A stretch of DNA of 64,000 bases from Coptis chinensis. Taxonomy: Eukaryota; Streptophyta; Magnoliopsida; Ranunculales; Ranunculaceae. The notes beneath the pieces are model-generated. The model did no database searches. It worked only from the letters and a program-made list of their open reading frames with translations, and was not told where the DNA came from. The position numbers and the translations under genes are program-made. The DNA lies in NCBI GenBank assembly GCA_015680905.1, contig CM027382.1:9583501-9647500 (forward strand). Direction: 5' to 3'. Below are positions 14,212-64,000 of this stretch, piece after piece. Within the stretch, counting starts at the first letter, position 1. Every line of letters starts with the position of its first letter.

Positions 14212-14590
14212 ATGTCTATGACTAGTGATAGTTTGAGTGGTGAGGTTGAAGTTGATGAATGGAGAGAGAGAATAGTAAGTGATGAAGAGGTTGATAATGG
14301 GGTTTGTAGTGGTGCTGAGGCTTCATCATCTCCTTCTTTGGAGACGAGGGCTGAGGATGCGAGGAGGCCTACGTCGGAAGATTGTTATACTTCTCTGAGG
14401 GAGGAGTTTGGTTGGGTCAGGGCCGACCTGGCCATGTACGACCTGAGGAGGGAGAGGAATTTGTTTCATAATGACTACGTTTCTTGAGGTGGAGGAGTAG
14501 TTATTTGCTATGGGCAGCTGGAGGCTGGGATGAGGTTGCCTCTATCCCGTCTTACTGTGGAGGTGCTGAATTGTTTGGGATTTCTCCAAG
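14212..14590 (+). mobile_element. Fossil fragment resembling the 'putative gypsy-type transposon' domain (Transposase_28)
   Basis: The segment encodes an acidic, Ser-rich head and then a stretch resembling the start of the Transposase_28 domain found in plant gypsy-like elements. It is broken and lacks any neighbouring gag, protease, reverse transcriptase or integrase region, and I see no LTR pair. Its right edge abuts the truncated PMD copy. Age cannot be estimated without LTRs. Confidence 0.4.
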
Positions 14591-15625
14591 CCCTTTGTGG
14601 AGGAGTCTTAATTTTTGTCTGTTCCTGGGTCAAATCAATGTCCCCAGTCATTGCTTTGCCCCTGATCAGAACTCCTAAGAGTTGGGAAACATCGTCCAAC
14701 GTGATTGTCATCTCGCCCCATGGCATATGAAACGTGTTGGTCTCTGGATGCCATCTCTCCACAAACGTAGAGACCAACATAGGATCCTGATGCCTGTATA
14801 CACCTAAGACCAGAGCACATAAGCCGGTCCTTTGAAGCTCCACGTGAAAATTAGAACAGTCTGAACACATTCCGACGATATCCTATTGTACCAACTTGTT
14901 TAGGTGCCCATGGCACTTCAACACCCTCGCTCCGCCTAAAACAACAAAAACTCAGTATTAATGTATGCACAAGGTTTCGTAATATAAAATTTAAATACTA
15001 ATAGACACTATATGATAATATTACCTGCCCCTCCCAAACATCGCGAGCCACGTGCACCGCATAGTCATACAACAGATGTGGCACACGAGGGCCACCTCTA
15101 TAAACACTTCTCTGGAACTCCAAGTCATTGTTAAACTTTCTCACAATATTCACTGGAGGTACAGGTACAGGGACTTCCTCGTCATCTTCCTCCTCCTCAT
15201 CATCATCTTCCTCCTCATCCTCCTCCTCGTCATTCTCCTCTTCTGCATAATCAACACCCTCTTCGTCATCTTTTTCACTATCATCTTTTTCACTATCAGC
15301 ATGACTTACAACTACACTCTTCCCACGATCCAAATTTACGACATCATCATCTACATCTACATCTAAATCTAAATCTATATCACTCGGAACTGTCTCCTTT
15401 CTTCTCTTTTGATTTCCTAACTCTACACTACTAACAACTACATTACTGGGATCGGGCGAGTCACCACGACCCTAACTGCTACTCCCCCCCACCTAACAAC
15501 TTCTTAGCACCCGTGAAAATACTTTTTGCTACATTCTTCACATTCTTTGTTCGAGGCATTGCTACAAAATACCCAAATAAATGAATAATAAGTAAATTGG
15601 CAATGCTGTAAACGTAAAATCCACA
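14591..15625 (-). pseudogene. Truncated plant mobile domain (PMD) gene copy
   Basis: Minus-strand copy of the first part of the PMD gene at 28,804. The start ATG (15,559) has the same context (TTTTGTAGCA before ATG) and the same first residues MPRTKNVK. Then follow a Lys-rich stretch, an Asp/Val repeat, a long run of Glu/Asp, PVPVPPVNIVRKFNNDLEF and, nearer 14,600-14,870, the PMD core RWHPETNTFHMPWGEMTITL with SQLLGV. Homology stops near 14,590, inside the PMD core, so the rest of the domain is absent. PMD is a plant domain of the MAIN/MAIL proteins, also found in transposons; its biochemical action is not established. Broken and truncated. Confidence 0.8.
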
Positions 15626-28803: not shown

Positions 28804-31267
28804 AATGCCTCGAACAAAGAATGTGAATGTAAAGACTGTAGCAAAAAGTGTTGTCATGGATGCTAAGAAGTTGTTAGGTGGGGGGAGTAGTAGTTCGGGT
28901 CGTGAGGAGCCTGAGAAAAAGAGAGAAAGGGCAACAACCACCTCGGCATCAATCCGTAGAGAGGATCGGAAAGCGGATGATCTCAGTAATGTAGTAAGTG
29001 GTGTAGAGTTAGGAAATCAAAATAGAAGAAAAGCGGACAGTTCTGAGTGATGTAGATGTAGATGTAGATGTAGATGTAGATTTACATTTACATTTAGATG
29101 TAGATATAGATGATGTAAATATGGATCGTGGGAAGAGTGTAGCTGTAGGTGATGGTGAAGAAGATGATAGTGAAGAAGATGACGAAGAGGGTGTTGATGA
29201 TGCAGAAAAGGAGGACGCGGAGGAGGAGGAGGATGACGAGGAAGTCCCTGAAGTCCCTATACCTGTACCTCCTGTGAATATTGTGAGAAAGTCCAACAAT
29301 GACTTGGAGTTCCAGAGAGGTGTTTATGGAGGTGGCCCTCGTGTGTCACATCTGTTATATGACTATCACGGTTGCACGTGGGTTTGCGATATTTGGGGGG
29401 GGTAATATTATTATATATTGTCTATTAGTATTTAAATTTTGTATTCTGAAACCTTGTGCATACATTAATACTGAGTTTTTTTGTTGTTTTAGGTGAAGCG
29501 AGGGTGTTGAAGTGTCATGGGAACCTAAACAAGTTGGTACAATGGGATATCGTCGGAAAGTGTTCAGACTGTTCTAATTTTCATGTGGAGCTTCAAAGGA
29601 CCGCTTATGTGCTCTGGTCTTGGGTGTATATAGGCATTAGGATCCTGTGTTGGTCTCTGCGTTTGTGGAGAGGTGGCATCCAGAGACCAACACGTTTCAT
29701 ATGCCGTGGGGCAAGACGACAATCACGTTGGACAATGTTTCCCAACTCTTAGGAGTTCCGATCAGAGGCAAAGCAGTGACTGGGGACACTGATTTGACCC
29801 TGGAACAGACAAAAAAACTCCTCCACCAAGGTCTTGGCATACCCATGGACAAGATAGATGCGGAGATGAAATCCAATAAGTTCACTTCCAAAGTTAGGAT
29901 GGATTTCTTGATGAAGCAGTTTGCTGGGAAGGTAACGGATGAAAATTTACGGGATGAAAATGGGATTGTTGTGAAGAAGGCGTCAACCCAAAAAGAGTTG
30001 CGGTTTGCTGTGAGAGCTTATTTGTTGTTTTCCTTTGGATGTACCGCCTTCACCGACATGTCTGGAACTGCAGTTCCCATTTGTTATCTGAGACTGCTTA
30101 TGAAATTTGCCAAGATCAGAGACTACGTGGGGTGCAGCCTTACTGGCTTACTTGTACAGGGGTCTTGGGACTGCCACAAGTGCCAAGGTGAAGGGTGTTT
30201 CAGGCTATTTCACTCTCCTACATGTATTAGTTTTTTTGTTTTTCTTTTCAATGTCAATTTTATCTACCTATTACAATATTAACTGGGTGTCTATGTTAAT
30301 CTAGGCATGGATTTATGAGTACTTCCCGGTATTCAGGCCATTCCCAAACGAGGACTATCAGTTGAGTATGTCGCGTAGTCATAGGTACTCAGTTACTCAG
30401 TCTTTTTATGCTAGCACAACAGCTGCATTGAAGCATACCCGAGCGATGATTGATAATATGACTTGTACCGATGTAAGCATTTTTGTATGTAAATAGTTTT
30501 ATTTATTAATTGATATTATTAGTATGTGGTTAATGATTAATTTCCTCGATCATATGCTATTTGACAGGTTGAATGGTATCCCTATGCTAAAGTCCGAGCT
30601 ATACGGCCGGTGGATGAAATAGCATTTTTCGAGGGATTTATATGCTTTCTTGATAATGTCGAGCAATACAATGTTTCGAGGGTTGTGCGTCAGTTGGGTC
30701 ATATGCAGTTTGTACCTTCAGATCTCCCAAGACCAAAGACCTCGACGTGAACTACTTCGGATGCGGGTACGATGTGAAAATTAATATTGTGTCTTCCTAC
30801 TGGAGTAAATGGCAGAATCACTTGATACAACTTGAACATCGAGGACCCATTCCGTCTTATCCATGGGAGTGTGTTAGTAGATACATGAGTTGGTACGAAA
30901 ACAATAGTCATATTCGAATGATAAACCCTGATCATCTTAATCACTACTTCCTACAGAGTCTTCCATATCATAATCTAGTGAGTTAATACTTTACAACGTT
31001 AGTTTTTTTTTTTTTTTTTTTTTTTTTTTGGTATTTTATAAATGTAAATGTATATACTAATGTAGTTTTTCATTTTAATTTTGACAGCACCCCGTCGTCG
31101 ATGAAATTTCTCGTTTGCTCAATCAAGGCCTGCAATTGGGTGGGACTGCGATTCCAGACGATGCACGGAACGAGTTCATGGAGGCATACAATTTGACCCG
31201 AGTGCAAGTTCATTGGCGGATGATATCGTTAAGGAGCATTGGATTTAGCAATGTTGAGTTTGGTTAG
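28804..31267 (+). pseudogene. Plant mobile domain (PMD, MAIN-like) gene, five exons
   Basis: Exons by GT-AG: 28,804-~29,401, ~29,493-~30,221, ~30,305-30,473, ~30,569-30,977, ~31,088-31,267. The N-terminus (MPRTKNVNVKTVAKS) is basic; an Asp/Glu-rich region follows, then PVPPVNIVRKSNNDLEF. The PMD core starts FVERWHPETNTFHMPWGKTTITL, SQLLGVPIRGKAVTGDTDL, then RAYLLFSFGCTAF, LRLLMKFAKIRDY and, in exon 4, VEWYPYAKVRAIRP with GFICFLDNVEQYNVSRVVRQLG. Exon 5 ends EFMEAYNLTRVQVHWRM. All parts of a MAIN-like PMD are present. The reading frame is interrupted in the N-terminal Asp-repeat region and near the start of exon 2, so it is probably inactive, but the C-terminal exons look clean. Its truncated sister is at 14,591-15,625 (-). 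The next feature downstream is a Mutator-like element, in keeping with the frequent link between PMD genes and transposons. Confidence 0.82.
29044..29108. repeat. GATGTA hexamer repeat inside PMD gene
   Basis: Several GATGTA/GATTTA units encode an Asp-Val/Leu repeat in one frame. The sister copy (15,340-15,400) has a shorter tract, so this is a variable microsatellite within a coding region. Confidence 0.8.
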
Positions 31268-55954: not shown

Positions 55955-58087
55955 TTCACCGGAAATTGGTCCTATTTTTTGTTGATATCAATCCCCAAAG
56001 ATTTAATCAACTTGCTAGTTGGCACCAGCAGTAGAAAGTAAAATCACATCATATATGTTAAAATTGCATGATGTGTTGGGAATTTCATGCTGAATACTTA
56101 TCAAACTGAATTTTCTTTGGTTGATGTCTATGGCTGGACGTGGATGTGTGTTTAAAGAGAATAGACCTTATAAAATTGAACGGACGAAAAACCAGCTAAT
56201 CAAAGTGTTTTTACTATATTTGGTGCGGTACAACTGTCCCTAAGTGGCATAGACTTAAGAGACGAGAAAAGCCAAAAATACGAGATTAGCCAACCAAGAT
56301 TGACCCAAAAAAAAATAATAATAATAATAAAAAAAAAATGACACACAAAATTAAAGCGTGAGCATAACAACAAATTATTCACTATCACACAATTTCAGTC
56401 CTACTGGACCTTATATATACATGATTTTTTTAGGAAAGACATCGTAAAAGATCAAAGAAGATCTAGGGTAGGAACATATGGGTGCTTGTGGGGCGGTCGC
56501 ACACCTAAACGATTGTAAAAGTCAGATAATGTAATAGTAACAAGTATGTGAACCGTGCTTACGCATAGATATTTTTTCGTGTTTTTAAACCTGTTGATAT
56601 TGTCATCGGTGTTTTTTCAAGTCTTTAAATTTGTCGCTCTAACATCTCTCGGATAGTATGATTTTTTGAATTTTAGTTCTAATTTGAAAAATAATATAAA
56701 AATATTAAGAGGGATTAAATATAATTTCGTGAATGAGATTTTCTAAATTATTTTAAATAATATGAAACTAATTCTAATTTCAATAAAGTGGGGGAGTTTT
56801 TTGTAAATTGTTTTAAAATGAGGGAGCTGATAAAAGCATTAGGAAGGGTTGAATATAATTTCAGTGACGTGAATGAAGTTTTCTAAATTATTTTAAATAA
56901 TATGAAACTAATTCTAATTTCAGTAAAGTGAGAGAGTTTTTTGTAAATTGTTTAAAAAAAAAGAAACTGATTAGAATAATTAAGAGATGTAGTTCTAAAA
57001 TCTTTAAATAGAGATATTAGAAATACACTATTCAGTTGAGAAGTGTACCTCCTAAAGACCCCACTATCATATAGTGTAGAGATTTGCTAGAAAAATAGCT
57101 AGACTATAAGAATTAGCACTCCTAATTTTTTTTTACAAAAAATCCACTATTACAATTCTAGTTCAATTATTGTGTTGCATATATTCTTGCACCCCCAGTT
57201 ACGGAAAAAAAATATATACTCGTGAACCCCTTAGACATTGAATCATGGTTCCGTTCGTGTATAGGAAAATCAAAAATATTTTAAGTAAAGAACAAAACCA
57301 TGGCACGACGCCACCACCTCAACACCATATCATTCATGACTACAGTACGACATCATTCGACAAACAATACACACATAGTACCAAACAAGAAAAAAAAAAA
57401 GATTTTGGTCGAGTGATATATTAAAATGGCTAAATCTATGGTGCGCAGGTCTTATGGTATGTTATCAAATCTGGGCCACTCATACCAAGGGGTGCGTGTG
57501 TATTGCATGGCAAAAGTACTATATCGTGCATCAGTGGGCAATATATATATAATCACAATCAGGAGGGAACCCAACCAGCCAGGAATGTATCATGCCTTCT
57601 GAAACAGTGAAGAATTGTCAGGAATAGAGTTTCATTATCGCAAGTCATGTTTTACGAAGGCTACTCGGTTATATTTTAAAAAAGTAGGACGCAAACGTGG
57701 CAAAGGACGCATAAATTAATTAATATTTATAATTTTTTTTATATAAATTGAACATTAAAAACTAAATTAAATGTATCAACATTCATAAATTTAAAACTAT
57801 TCAAGATAAATAGCCACAAAATTAAGTTTAATATTTCCTAATCAAACTTTAAAAACACGTCATAAGTCTTAACAAAACAAAAACAAAAAAAATTGAGTTT
57901 TTTAATATTATTTTGATTTTTTTAGTCAAAATCCGCATCCTGACCATGTTGACCACGTCTAGACTGCATCTTGACCCGTGTCTAGCTTAGTTGACCACGT
58001 CGGACGTGCGTCCATGCCACATTCATGTCCACGTCCAATACATGTCCAACACAGACACAACCCTTTGGTAGGTGCATTCGTGCTTTA
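55955..58087. other. Intergenic with a tandem duplication
   Basis: A ~150-bp unit is duplicated at about 56,700-56,830 and 56,850-56,965 (TTTTCTAAATTATTTTAAAT and TATGAAACTAATTCTAATTT in each). No gene recognised. Confidence 0.55.
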
Positions 58088-58531
58088 GTGCAAGTTCAAT
58101 GGAGAGTTGCTAAAGAGCGCCATGCCAAAAAAAAAAATTTTGCCCTTTTTTAGCAGGAGAGTCAAATTTGACAGGTGCAAAACACACAAACCGTTCCAAT
58201 AGTTGTTTCATACTTTGAAGTGCTAAAGGGATACGAACGGCACAGTTTCTGTCGTCCGTCCATTAGTTGCAAGTATTAAGTTGAATTTTTTTTTTGACAG
58301 ACAACACACTTTCTGTCATCTATCAAAATTTAACGCACAGATGGCAGAAATTGTGTCATCTGTCTCCCAAAACTTATTATGGCAGCTGCTAGACAATACA
58401 ACAAATTTAGCGAGGTTTATCACACCAGCCAAATTTAATAGTCTTCTAGCATCCCCATTGGAATGACTTTTTGGTGTTTGGGGTGTTATATGGCTTTTAG
58501 CAGCCCATATAGCACCCCATTGGACTTGCTC
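58088..58531. mobile_element. 444-bp MITE related to the PMD-carrying element
   Basis: The left end GTGCAAGTTCAATGG and the right end, in reverse complement, GAGCAAGTCCAATGG are inverted repeats. The flanking bases are TTA and TCA, one mismatch from a Harbinger-type duplication. Inside, CGAACGGCACAGTTTCTG and GACAGACAACACACTTTCTG mimic the subterminal motif of the larger element, and CTGCTAAAAG/TAGCAGCCCATATAGCACC is shared with its left end. No coding. Confidence 0.75.
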
Positions 58532-59547
58532 TCAGAGATAACAAGAAAATGAAAACAACAAGATAGAAACGGGCTTTTGTTTAGTGTCCATCAATATGAG
58601 CCTAAATGAAATTGCTTGTGGAAAGTGGACTTTGTGATAAAAATATGCTAGTTAGAGCCCATTTTTTAAGTTTTGAACGTACTTTGTGTGTAACTGTAGA
58701 GGATTGCTAGTGTCCTGCCCCTTTAAAGTAGGACCATGTTACCACTTTAGGGCATCATCAATGCAGAGCTTTAAAACCCAGGGCCATGTCATCTTTTTTA
58801 GAGGGTCACGTCAGTTTTTGGAGGGCAATAAAGAGTAGCGAAAACTCTATCTTAATGGCTATTCCAACGGAGAAGATAACCCCTCTTTATAACCCGTGAA
58901 ATTAGCGCAAGTGAAGTCACGTGCACAATTTCTATTAAAGGCTTGGGCTTCGAGTCCTTTAAAACATCTGTAAGAATGAGGACAATTATCAAGGGTGATC
59001 GATAAATATGGAGGCCCATTTAATTAGAGGATGCTCTGGAAGCTGTTTTTTTTAGGTCCGTTAAATTTGAAGAAAACTGCCCGTATCCAAGTTTAACTTC
59101 AAGTAATGGGTTGACTCACTTCATTCTTTTTCTAACAGCCATAGCTATGGCTGTCATAATTTGTTCAAGCAAGTCGTTATTTTTTATATCAAAAGAAAAG
59201 AAGACCCCACACTTACAATAATCTTTACTTGAGATTACAATATTTATTAGTATTGCATCAAACTAGGATTTCAAGTTTGAGATGTAAATCATCTAGAAAA
59301 AGAGCCGATAATTCAAAATTGCTAATAATAAAAAAAAGTTTCAATTTTTTTGGAATAAGCAAATGATGGAAAGTAACTAAGAGAGAGAGATGGAAGAATT
59401 AAACTTCTGAGTTTTTAAGTTTTCTCATAAAATTGTGAAAAAGATATGGAAAGTGGAAGATGGGAAGATAAGCCGGAGATCTAGTTTGGTTTTATATATT
59501 GTTATTTGATTTACCAAATTGTTCCTGGTAGTCTCTCTAATTACTAA
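58532..59547. other. Intergenic, no gene seen
   Basis: Contains GGGCATCATCAATGCAGAG (about 58,744) and AATGGCTATTCCAACGGAG (about 58,855), which look like ends of another small MITE, unpaired by eye. Confidence 0.4.
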
Positions 59548-60059
59548 GAGCAAGTCCAATGAGGGGGTTATATGGGCTGCTAAAGGCAAATATAGCACCC
59601 CAGACACAAAAATGTCATTCCATTGGGGCTGCTAAAAGGGTCTTAAATTTGGAAGGAGTAAAAAACCCAACCAAAGTTAAGACCTTCGCTTAATTTGCCA
59701 TAATAAGTTCGAGGAGACGGACGACATAGTTTTACGCCATCCGTTGGTTATTTATGTATGCGGGGCGGTAGAAATTATCTTTGTCCGTATCCCGTTTTAA
59801 TTAAATGGACGGACGCGAGGGGGAGAAACTGCGCCTACGTACTGTTTTTTTAAAACTGACAAATCTCATTCTTCTTTTCATATACAAACTCACTCCACTT
59901 CATTCCATTCTAATCCATTTCGTTCATGCAATAGAGATAACAATCCACACATCCATTCAACTAAACAAAATTCATTCATTAAACAAATATGATTCAATTC
60001 ATTCAACTAAACAAAATCCACAGAAGTAAATCAAAACACACATAAAAACAAATTCTAAA

Positions 60060-62285
60060 CTAATTTCCGCTTGAACCCTCGCCAACTTGCCTCTTCTTTG
60101 ATTTACTTGCTCGCTGTGATTCTCGTAATGTCAGTTCTAACACCTGCGCTTCTAACTCCGTGACTCTATCATGTGTCTTTTTCTTCTCTTCTCGCTCGGC
60201 CACCAAATAATGATAATATTCGTTGGTTGTAGTCATAAACAAATCGCGTATCCCATGCATCATTAGCTGCGACTCGGCATATCACGCTCTAAGTGTAGCC
60301 TACAAAAAAATAAATAACTTTTAAAAAAAATCACTATAAACCAAATATAATTCAAGTTTCAAAATATAAACCAAATACTAACCTCATGTAGAGTGTCAAA
60401 ATCCGGGACAAAGTTCGGAAAATAACTTTAATCAACATGAGGTATAGGTATGGCGACATGCATTCCCTGAGATGTAATTATACCATAGCTCCATGGGTTA
60501 TCCGGATCGGAAGGAGCTGAAACAAAAGACTCGTAAGGACCTTGAGATGAATAGTAAGGCTCAGTAGGGTGTGGGATACGCAAATCACTTCTAATAGTCT
60601 TATGTCCCACAAAGTCCATATTAGCAGACAATATAAGACCCCTTGAGACGAGATCCCAGTAACTATCGTAGTCACCATTCACATCTAAATATAGAGAAGC
60701 TTGTGGCCATAAGTCTTCAAGCATTCTAAGATAAGACCTCCACTGATTGGCTCTTCCCAATGGGCACATATTCTCTGGAGGAAGGTGTGGGATAAAAGGT
60801 GTCCCAACGATTTGGTGCCAACACCTATCACCCAAGTGCCACACGATGATACCTCCAAACTCAAAGACAATTCGGAGCATTGTAAGATTATACGAATGAT
60901 GTACACGTTAAATCGCCTCACGTAACCAAACATCATCATCCATGGTATCTCCCTCCACATCATCAACATTTAATTCCATATATCGAGTATGAAACCATGG
61001 TATCCACTGTATCGCCAATGCCGACCTAGTCTTGAGTTGGTTATGATCTAAGTGAATGTTGCGACCAGTTCGGCAATCTTTAAAGTCATTCATCCATGCT
61101 CTAATCCGTGGGACGATATCACGGTCCATGTTCGGTCTCAGAAGAGGAGCCATGGTAGGTACTCATGCAACCAATACTATCATAAAAACAATATTAAAAT
61201 CAAACTTGTACGTAATTTAAAAATTATAATACTATCATAAAGTTATAATACTAAAAATTTAAAATTTACTTGTGAAAGAGGGGTGAAGCCACCACATTGA
61301 CCATCCGCAACATTAGATGTGACTCGACACGCTTGATCCAACGCATAAATCAAAGCTCCAAACATAGCACCACCCCAATCATATTGATTCATATAATCTA
61401 ACCAAACCAAAGACTCTATCTAACCTAATCTCAGTGAACTATCACCCGTGAGGAAGAAACATTGCGTGATTAAGTAAAAATAAAATGCTTTTAAATATCT
61501 CTCCCGATCTGTACCCGTCGGGCACTAACCTTCATCACTCTCTTTCGTCTTCTCCATGAACTCATTCACAAAAAAGGAAGGTTTGATACCCCCTTTAGCC
61601 TAATGCTCCAGCCTTATATTCGGCCAACTTTGTTGCGCATAATCAAAAGTCGCGAACCGACCTTCTCCAAACGTAACAGACTTTCTCCTTCCTACGCTCA
61701 TTCTCATGAGCATAGTAACATCTATTGGAGTGATGCCTATCTCGCCTTATGGAAAGTGGAAAGTGTGAGTTGTGTCCCACCACCACTCGATCAAAGCGTA
61801 TATCAAACCATGGTCGGCATTTTGATAACCACATTGAAACAATGATCCAAACAGAGATTGTAAAATTTTATTTCTTATGCCTTCAAAACAATCTCCTTTG
61901 GCAACCATTATCTTCCACCAATTGTTCACGGATGCCCAACAACACCGCAATTTTATCTCCCCCACTTCCCCTCCCTAAATATTTATTCAAAATATTTATT
62001 CATTAAAATTAAAGAAAATATAAATTATGATGTTAAATAAATCAAATTTAACGATCAAATGCTTACCATATTTACACGATGAGAGATGTGAGTTTTCGGG
62101 TTTCTAGCCAATGTAGCACGTGTTAGTAGATCGACTGCGTCTGAAAATTGAATTACTGGAAGGTTTTGCAAATTATAGACTTCATCGATGTTTTCATCCT
62201 TATCGACATTTAGCGCTGATATCGACTCTTGTGTCAATCTACTAACTGATTTTCGACCAAAAAATTGTTTACCCTTGTTACTCAT
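60060..62285 (-). CDS. Plant mobile domain (MAIN-like) gene inside TIR element, broken
   Basis: Exon 1 (62,285-62,067) starts MSNKGKQFFGRKSVSRLTQE and ends at ATG/GTAAGC. Exon 2 (from 61,974) reads WASVNNWWKIMVAKGDCFEG, then YQNADHGLIYALIEWWWDTT and HTFHFP, the PMD hallmark (compare RWHPETNTFHMPWG at the other loci). It goes on with GEIGITPIDVTMLM, then AFYFYLITQCFFL, YDWGGAMFGALIYALDQACR and GGFTPLSQ (to about 61,270). Exon 3 (about 61,153-60,429) has IVWHLGDRCWHQIVGTPFIP and LPPENMCPLG, the PMD C-terminal end, then a Pro-rich tail. The last exon (60,263-60,060) is a short coiled coil ending in a Lys-rich patch. Breaks: a stop after HTFHFP, others in exon 2, and a frame change at about 60,890. 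This is a different PMD subgroup from the 15- and 29-kb loci. Confidence 0.8.
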
Positions 62286-62384
62286 TTTGCGTGGCACCTG
62301 CAATTCAATCAACAATATTCTCTTTATAACTTCAATTTAAACAAAACGCACAATTTCAAACTAACATTCATCAATTCCAACATT

Positions 62385-62620
62385 CTAATTCAATCATAAT
62401 TCAATTTAATTCAATTTAATTCAATCACAATTCAATTCTAAAATCAACATTCAATTCAATTCTAAAATCAAATTTGCAATTCTAATTCAATTCAATTCAA
62501 TTCTAAAATCAATTCAATCACAATTCAATTCAATTCTAAAATCAACATTCAATTCAATTCTAAAATCGATTCAATCACAATTCAATCACAATTCAATTCA
62601 ATTCAATCATAATTAACATT
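62385..62620. repeat. AATTC-rich tandem repeat near the PMD gene start
   Basis: Runs of AATTCAATTC alternating with TAAAATCAAC; length-variable simple repeat in the 5' flank of the PMD gene. Confidence 0.9.
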
Positions 62621-62931
62621 TCTAAAATCGAATTTCGATAGGAGAGAGTGAAACTTACGAGTATTGAGCACAAAAAAGAGTGAATTGAGGAATGAAGGAG
62701 TGAATTGTTTTTGTTTTTGGTTTTTGGGAGTGAAGAGAGAAGAGAAGTGAGGAATTGAAAGAGTGAATTGATGAGAAGAGATTTGTGCACTATAGTATCT
62801 AGAGTGCATAAACGGCAAAATTTATGCCGTTTGTTGCAATTTAATGTACAGACGGCAAAAACTCTGCCGTCCGTATCCCAAACTTAACAGATGCTAAAAG
62901 TCCCCATTGGACTGGTTTTTCGAATTCAGAA

Positions 62932-63880
62932 AGTGACTCTCTAGGACAAATCAAGTGAAATAATCACTGCCAAACCCCAAGTTTTTTTTCATAATCACTC
63001 TTAAAGACCGGGTAGATGAAATGTCAAGTATACCCTAACCAGTGTATATAGTATGAACAATCATTGTTCATATACAAAACATGCGAGCTCATTGTTCATA
63101 CCCATTGGAGTATGAACACTCATTGTTCATACATATTGTAAAGTATGAGCAATGATTGTTCATACCTACTAGAGTATAAACAAAGCGTGTTCATCCTTAT
63201 TGGAGCTATAAACAATGGATGTTCCTAGCTCATGACTATGAACAATTGTTCATAGTCCAATTGTGGTATGAACAAAGAATATTCATAGCTCATGACTATG
63301 AACATTGATTGTTCATAGTACAGTATGGACTATGAACACTCATTGTTCATAGCTCATATCTATGAACAATGAATGTTAATAGCTACCGAACTATGAACAA
63401 TCATTGTTCATAGTCCAATTGTGATATGAACAAAGAATATTCATAACTCATGACTATGAACATTGATTGTTCATAGTACGTATAGTATGGACTATGAACA
63501 CTCATTGTTCATAGCGTGGATTAGCTATGAACAATGAGTGTTCATAGTCCATCTTTGCACGCATTTATGAACAATCAATGTTCATAGTCATGAGTTATGA
63601 ATATTCTTTGTTCATACCACAATTGGACTATGAACAATGATTATTTATAGTCATGAGCTATGAACATTCTTCGTTCATATCACAATTGGACTATGAATTC
63701 ATAGCTGCCAAACTATGAACAATTGTGATATGAACAATTGTGTTCATAGCTGCCAAACTATGAGCTATGAACAATTGTGTTCATAGCTGCCAAACTAGTC
63801 CAATTATGATATGAACAAAGAATGTTCATAGCTCATGACTATGAACAATCATTGTTCTAGAGTTTGGTCGATCAACAACT
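62932..63880. mobile_element. Palindromic TGAACA-repeat element, copy B
   Basis: Begins AAGTGACTCTCTAGG, followed by the same block as copy A (ATAATCACTCTTAAAGACCG then GGTAGATGAAAT). Then come about 20 palindromes of the types TATGAACAATGATTGTTCAT and ATGAACACTCATTGTTCATA, separated by TCCAATTGTGATATGAACAA and AGCTCATGACTATGAACA spacers. It starts about 15 bases after the PMD element end. The right end is not clear. Confidence 0.6.
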
Positions 63881-64000
63881 TTTGTTTCTTTTAATGACAA
63901 ACGGTTCGTGGGCAACTTTATTTCCTGTAATATAAGCAAGAAACGAGATCATTGCATTGTTTCAACTTCTACAATGGACCAATCTTAATCTCACACTTCT
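63881..64000. other. Window edge, nothing seen
   Basis: AT-rich, too short to judge. Confidence 0.4.

Follow-up and report, generated by a model that had tools for sequence, protein, structure and literature searches.

Plant mobile domain (PMD) genes have been described in Gypsy elements (PMD-A) and fused to the transposases of MULEs (PMC5418596), and MULE families with a PMD have been tabulated (PMC6446971). The PMD proteins MAIN and MAIL1 act in transposon silencing in Arabidopsis, and PMDs borne by transposable elements have been proposed to be counter-silencers (PMC5418596, PMC8616336). PIF/Harbinger elements and Tourist-like MITEs, such as Ping, Pong and mPing of rice, have a 3-bp target duplication of the TTA/TAA type and a short terminal inverted repeat (TIR), and their MITE derivatives owe their mobility to a related full element (PMC2836001, PMC2213677). 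Pack-PIF elements have also been described, and Pack-TYPE elements of this kind are non-autonomous TIR elements with captured coding DNA (PMC8903248).

The locus reported here lies in a window of 64,000 nucleotides of Coptis chinensis (contig C6, positions 9583501-9647500), which is the whole stretch of DNA that was analysed. The genome searched comprises 935.6 Mb in 116 contigs. The original prediction described the interval from 59548 to 62917 as a non-autonomous, Harbinger-like TIR element that spreads a PMD gene. This description holds at the level of a PMD-carrying family. We are confident that the copy in the window represents a non-autonomous PIF/Harbinger-type transposon, now truncated on the right and inactive, with a captured PMD gene that decayed without clear selection. 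The following features were assigned in the window.

59545..59547, no strand: left target-site triplet TAA (from the sequence), the right-hand counterpart of which is missing
59548..59562, plus strand: left TIR GAGCAAGTCCAATGA, with one mismatch relative to GAGCAAGTCCAATGG (genome matches, flank alignment)
59548..59815, plus strand: left terminal region common to the transposase element T7 (L007 and L054), 86% over 270 columns
60060..60299, minus strand: predicted PMD exon 5, a charged, probably coiled tail (acceptor context, translation), with the terminal stop at 60062-60060
60383..61161, minus strand: predicted PMD exon 4, with two premature stops in the window copy and 4 nt missing near the acceptor relative to the sister copies
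61270..61974, minus strand: predicted PMD exon 3, the part that matches PF10536, with four premature stops in the window copy
62067..62285, minus strand: predicted PMD exon 2, whose putative start codon is at 62285-62283 (from sister-copy translations and their splice contexts)
62658..62800, minus strand: putative 5' untranslated exon with approximate limits, placed from the sequence by a donor-like ACTC/GTAAGT at 62657
62850..62926, minus strand: right subterminal region common to T7, 95% over 77 bp, where the window copy stops
62905..62917, minus strand: internal echo of the TIR, CATTGGACT, first taken for the right TIR; the same place is occupied in relatives

The left end called at 59548 (GAGCAAGTCCAATG) is a genuine transposon terminus, which recurs in the genome and is flanked by a TNA triplet. 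The first 153 bases of the interval are found at at least 40 places at 93-100% identity (best 40 scored of 1045 candidates). Among the loci examined, TTA, TAA or TGA adjoins the start in 14 of 16 left-end rows; the remaining two are L039, with a 5-nt insertion in the TIR, and the second copy in L006. The right terminus claimed at 62917 had to be abandoned. Relatives run through CATTGGACTGGTT, the string at 62905-62917, into TTTCGAATTTGGGCTGCC and beyond, and then end with CCCCATTGGACTTGCTC. All but one (L016) of the 30 distinct relatives that span this site extend as far as a TIR-like terminus, in most cases 97 bp farther on. Since the relatives run past 62905-62917 to a farther end, CATTGGACT is an internal echo at this place and the right terminus has been lost from the window copy. 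The right end is followed by TNA in 27 of 29 relatives, the exceptions being L044 (ATA) and L037 (TTG); this number was recounted with a stricter pattern, which overlooks L027 and picks up a decoy in L012, L013 and L017. Homology between the window copy and its relatives stops after 62926, and the right TIR and the right target duplication are therefore absent from it. The truncated element is followed on its right, at 63050-63849, by an array of units like TATGAACAATNATTGTTCATA, which are largely palindromic. Rfam gave no match at gathering level on 58000-64000.

The right 286 bases (62640-62925) are likewise found at at least 40 places (best 40 scored of 252 candidates). The left and right ends recur at a similar distance elsewhere, with about 3.3 kb between them in L043 and L040, and relatives with both ends and the whole interior measure about 3.2-3.4 kb. 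Their TIRs, GAGCAAGTCCAATGGGG...CCCCATTGGACTTGCTC, are short, as in PIF/Harbinger elements. Paired subterminal GACGGCA/TGCCGTC motifs had also been proposed. They stand as a feature of the family, being clear in T7, where 18 sites with at most one mismatch compare with a mean of 5.07 and a maximum of 13 in mononucleotide shuffles. In the window copy they stay within the shuffle range (8 sites; mean 3.74, maximum 9), and the PMD copy L043 has 9 sites (mean 4.15, maximum 10).

The 3-bp duplication of the TTA/TAA type that is typical of PIF/Harbinger elements is present at the family level, and the window copy itself keeps only the left TAA. Identical triplets were found on both sides of all eight elements tested: TTA in L043, L069, L012, L031, L040 and L002, and TGA in T7 and L003. 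TTA also stands on both sides of L006 and of L039, the element with the 5-nt insertion in its left TIR. In 8 of the 29 relatives the right-end triplet resembles TAA, TGA or TCA and not TTA, which calls for decay or a loose target. An empty site was obtained for L012: the locus L074 is without the element, and 30 identical bases run across the join with one TTA. This empty site sits in a repeat array, and the other two of the three sites fetched (L073 and L075) give poorer alignments at the join. For L069, a search with the joined flanks gave no clean empty site among the matches listed; a single one of these extends over the join, for 6 bases at 79% identity.

The absence of a transposase from the interval, as first proposed, is borne out by the transposase element of the family, which matches the interval at its two ends only. 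This element, T7, was located via the left-end search and encodes a Harbinger-type transposase, in a broken frame, between the same ends. T7 (L007 and L054, left end at C5:76586911) is 2970 bp long with TGA on both sides, and Pfam assigns two pieces of it, in several frames, to PF04827 (Plant_tran; E=7.3e-28 and 1.5e-07). We take PF04827 to be the transposase domain of the PIF/Harbinger superfamily. Because the PMD elements have the same ends as T7, they are non-autonomous partners of a Harbinger family. A second copy of the transposase element (L005 and L053) is decayed, and among the T7-type elements read, no transposase frame is intact end to end. Minus-strand frames in L053 and L054, on the right-hand side of T7, look ORF1-like by eye and are without a match in Pfam. 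When eight PF13359 loci were searched for the family TIR with at most 3 edits, two stray weak matches appeared in L045 and none in the other seven.

Between T7 and the full-length PMD element L043, the first 266 bp are 91% and the last 206 bp 88% identical, and blastn finds no match between these shared ends. Within 3.5 kb of 40 left ends, at least 8 are followed by a PMD and at least 8 by a T7-type transposase. No left end of the 40 is followed by both within this distance among the matches used, a search that was not exhaustive. These counts, which are lower bounds, drew on all 40 left ends, on 150 of the 155 PMD matches and on 94 of the 150 transposase matches. The unmatched interior, together with the lack of a left end with both genes, suggests that the PMD element did not arise by internal deletion from the transposase element. 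Judged by alignment, its interior is unrelated cargo between ends that it has in common with the transposase element. PMD and transposase matches lie less than 6 kb apart at at least three places (C1:60.23, C5:84.75 (84.747) and C2:74.08 Mb). In L040 (positions 1-463, C1:60.228 Mb), a reversed transposase-type left end without its first 23 bp adjoins the PMD element at TTA. Small elements also belong here, as the 425-bp MITEs L002 and L003 have the left end and TIRs in common with the family. The window also contains a further, separate MITE of this family, 444 bp long, at 58088..58531 on the minus strand, 1 kb upstream of the element and in opposite orientation, with flanks TTA and TCA.

The multi-exon PMD gene, which lies on the minus strand, had been recognised correctly, as judged by a profile match of exon 3 in a sister copy and by splice-like borders. 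Exon 3 of the sister copy L040 scores 43.8 bits against PF10536, above the cut-off of 34.9; the exon-3 piece of the window (19.6 bits) and a piece of L041 (32.7 bits) stay below it. The predicted product has about 630-640 codons, in four minus-strand coding exons preceded by a putative 5' exon. The exon borders were read from the window sequence and from the splice contexts and translations of sister copies. The terminal stop at the end of exon 5 is kept in all six copies scored. In the putative first intron, an AATTC-rich tandem array with 98-bp and 5-bp periods is seen at 62382-62607, seemingly in sister copies too.

The PMD frame is present in other family members as well. The exon-4 piece (159 aa) has at least 155 matches in the genome (150 scored of 1304 candidates), some of them without a stop. 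Premature stops are found in all seven copies with more than 500 codons scored, namely 7 in the 636 codons of the window copy, 8 in L044, 4 in L043, 7 in L040, 1 in L039, 5 in L041 and 3 in L042. No non-terminal stop occurs in the majority of copies, the highest counts being 6 of 30 and 2 of 8. L010 and L014, which are duplicates of L043 and L044, were left out of these counts and of the codon-position diversity below. In the majority-state frame, the terminal stop is the only one in 633 codons, compared with 36 in 630 and 48 in 628 for the other two frames. The founder of the main subfamily therefore had an open frame, which was later disrupted in one copy after another. As a truncated pseudogene, the window copy spreads nothing now.

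A search with PF10536 revealed a very large PMD repeat family in the genome, with at least 139 matches (117 scored of 3773 candidates). Two more PMD frames lie in the window, at 14574-14798 on the minus strand and 29629-30282 on the plus strand, with an acidic frame upstream of each. Both are like L061 and L065 by eye and are thus placed in a different PMD family. A host donor gene was not found among 12 PF10536 loci compared with the PMD exon; ten of them match it at 21-42% identity, and L055 and L064 do not.

The PMD cargo is not restricted to the main subfamily. L069 is a complete element of 3184 bp flanked by TTA at each end, and its interior is about 81% identical to that of L043 (2421 columns). 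L067, L068 and L072 each have a TIR-like right end with TTA next to it. It follows that the cargo has been carried through at least two subfamilies. This raises the alternative that the PMD protein has a function in the element (a counter-silencer or a transposition helper, perhaps a substitute for ORF1) and was selected during the spread, which we consider unlikely. Such a role would suit the retention of the gene in at least two subfamilies that are about 81% identical, the founder frame of the main subfamily that was open over 633 codons, the position of this minus-strand gene beside the right end common to the transposase element, and a crude ratio of 0.53 between subfamilies.

That ratio comes from 43 synonymous and 85 non-synonymous differences, with L067, L068, L069 and L072 as the only divergent set and the badly aligned L070 and L071 left out. 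Among the selection tests run, it alone leans to constraint. Transversions alone between the subfamilies amount to 15 synonymous and 48 non-synonymous changes, which speaks against selection on the protein. The same is true of the third codon position, where an excess is absent among copies, between subfamilies and on internal branches. Diversity at codon positions 1, 2 and 3 is 0.091, 0.083 and 0.092 in exon 3, and 0.121, 0.104 and 0.079 in exon 2. In a copy tree that left out L070, L071, L067, L012, L028 and L030, the changes at positions 1, 2 and 3 are 245, 193 and 190 on internal branches and 482, 443 and 479 on terminal branches. Comparison of the main subfamily with the divergent copies gives 54 differences of 560, 42 of 555 and 50 of 556 at positions 1, 2 and 3; two badly aligned copies are included here, and L010, L014, L031, L036 and L037 (the last three short) are not. 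Because the codon positions are about equally variable, internal branches included, no clear coding constraint is seen, and constraint on the PMD is weak at best. The median divergence from the majority is 5.6% in 32 copies, mostly by transitions. Each of the four divergent copies read by codon contains numerous stops (13-24), some of them in common. L072 and L068 have stops in common at five codons, which suggests that dead copies also moved, unless there were repeated deaminations. The data lean towards a PMD gene that looks more like a passenger than a necessity of the element. It is unlikely that PIF/Harbinger would be a third transposon class with PMD genes in the strong sense, in which the protein serves the element, by acting against silencing of the MAIN/MAIL1 type or by helping in trans, and in this way accounts for a high-copy family without transposase.

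The reading of the PMD as captured, decaying cargo builds on several direct observations, which are the element ends, the 3-bp TNA duplications, the empty site, the copy number, the transposase element with the same ends and the founder frame. The PMD would have been captured into the element. The transposase of a related full element, probably together with an ORF1 partner, may bind the common ends in trans. It would then cut and paste the PMD element, by analogy with mPing (PMC2836001). The PMD gene would have been carried along and copied while it was intact, and would later have decayed without clear selection.

It is extremely improbable that a single old host PMD gene lies between unrelated MITE ends of the family and that the interval is not one element. 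The MITE of the same family at 58088-58531 would fit such an arrangement, but L043 is alignable from the first base of the interval to 62926 with different flanks and matching target duplications, and full-length copies with target duplications refute it. That the element is a MULE (a Pack-MULE) or a Gypsy fragment is equally improbable. These elements are known PMD carriers (PMC5418596, PMC6446971), but the duplications here are of 3 bp, compared with 9 bp given for MULEs in PMC6446971 and 9-11 bp as their usual criterion, and PF04827 (Plant_tran) is encoded by the partner that has these ends.

Several known systems can be compared with the captured-PMD transposon of Coptis. We take GGCCAGTCACAATGG to be the end of mPing, and to our knowledge TIRs of the Pong type are without the motif G(N)5GTT. 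The Coptis TIR, GAGCAAGTC-CAATGG, is similar to GGCCAGTCACAATGG, a string given in PMC2836001. The G(N)5GTT motif of PIF-like TIRs (PMC2213677) does not occur in GAGCAAGTC. As PMC2213677 applies this motif to Master/PIF-like families and Pong-type TIRs are not known to have it, it is read as the mark of a sub-group. With PIF/Harbinger elements and Tourist-like MITEs such as Ping, Pong and mPing, the Coptis family has in common the 3-bp duplication, the short TIR and derivatives that have a related full element. It differs from them in the interior of the PMD element, which has no blastn match to the transposase element, and in duplications that may also be TGA.

MULEs with a PMD are also DNA transposons with PMD genes, often antisense to the transposase (PMC5418596, PMC6446971). 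They belong to a different superfamily, whereas the PMD element here has 3-bp duplications and no transposase. PMD-A Gypsy retrotransposons likewise encode a PMD (PMC5418596), and the Coptis element is unlike them in being a TIR element with 3-bp duplications. Among the open-licence papers searched, no PIF/Harbinger element with a PMD was found; two of them, PMC8616336 and PMC4583175, mention both PMDs and Harbinger, and the passages concerned do not link the two. A PMD in PIF/Harbinger would add one more independent link between this domain and mobile elements, and the common ends of PMD-bearing and transposase-bearing elements make a direct comparison possible.

Like the Pack-TYPE elements (PMC8903248), the Coptis element has TIRs, is non-autonomous, lacks a transposase and contains captured coding DNA. 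It differs from Pack-PIF elements in that the founder had a long open multi-exon frame, which many copies and at least two subfamilies contain, and in that its cargo is itself a domain associated with transposable elements. What is new, relative to the open-licence literature, in which the PMD vehicles found are Gypsy and MULE elements, is the Pack-PIF-like carriage of a PMD.
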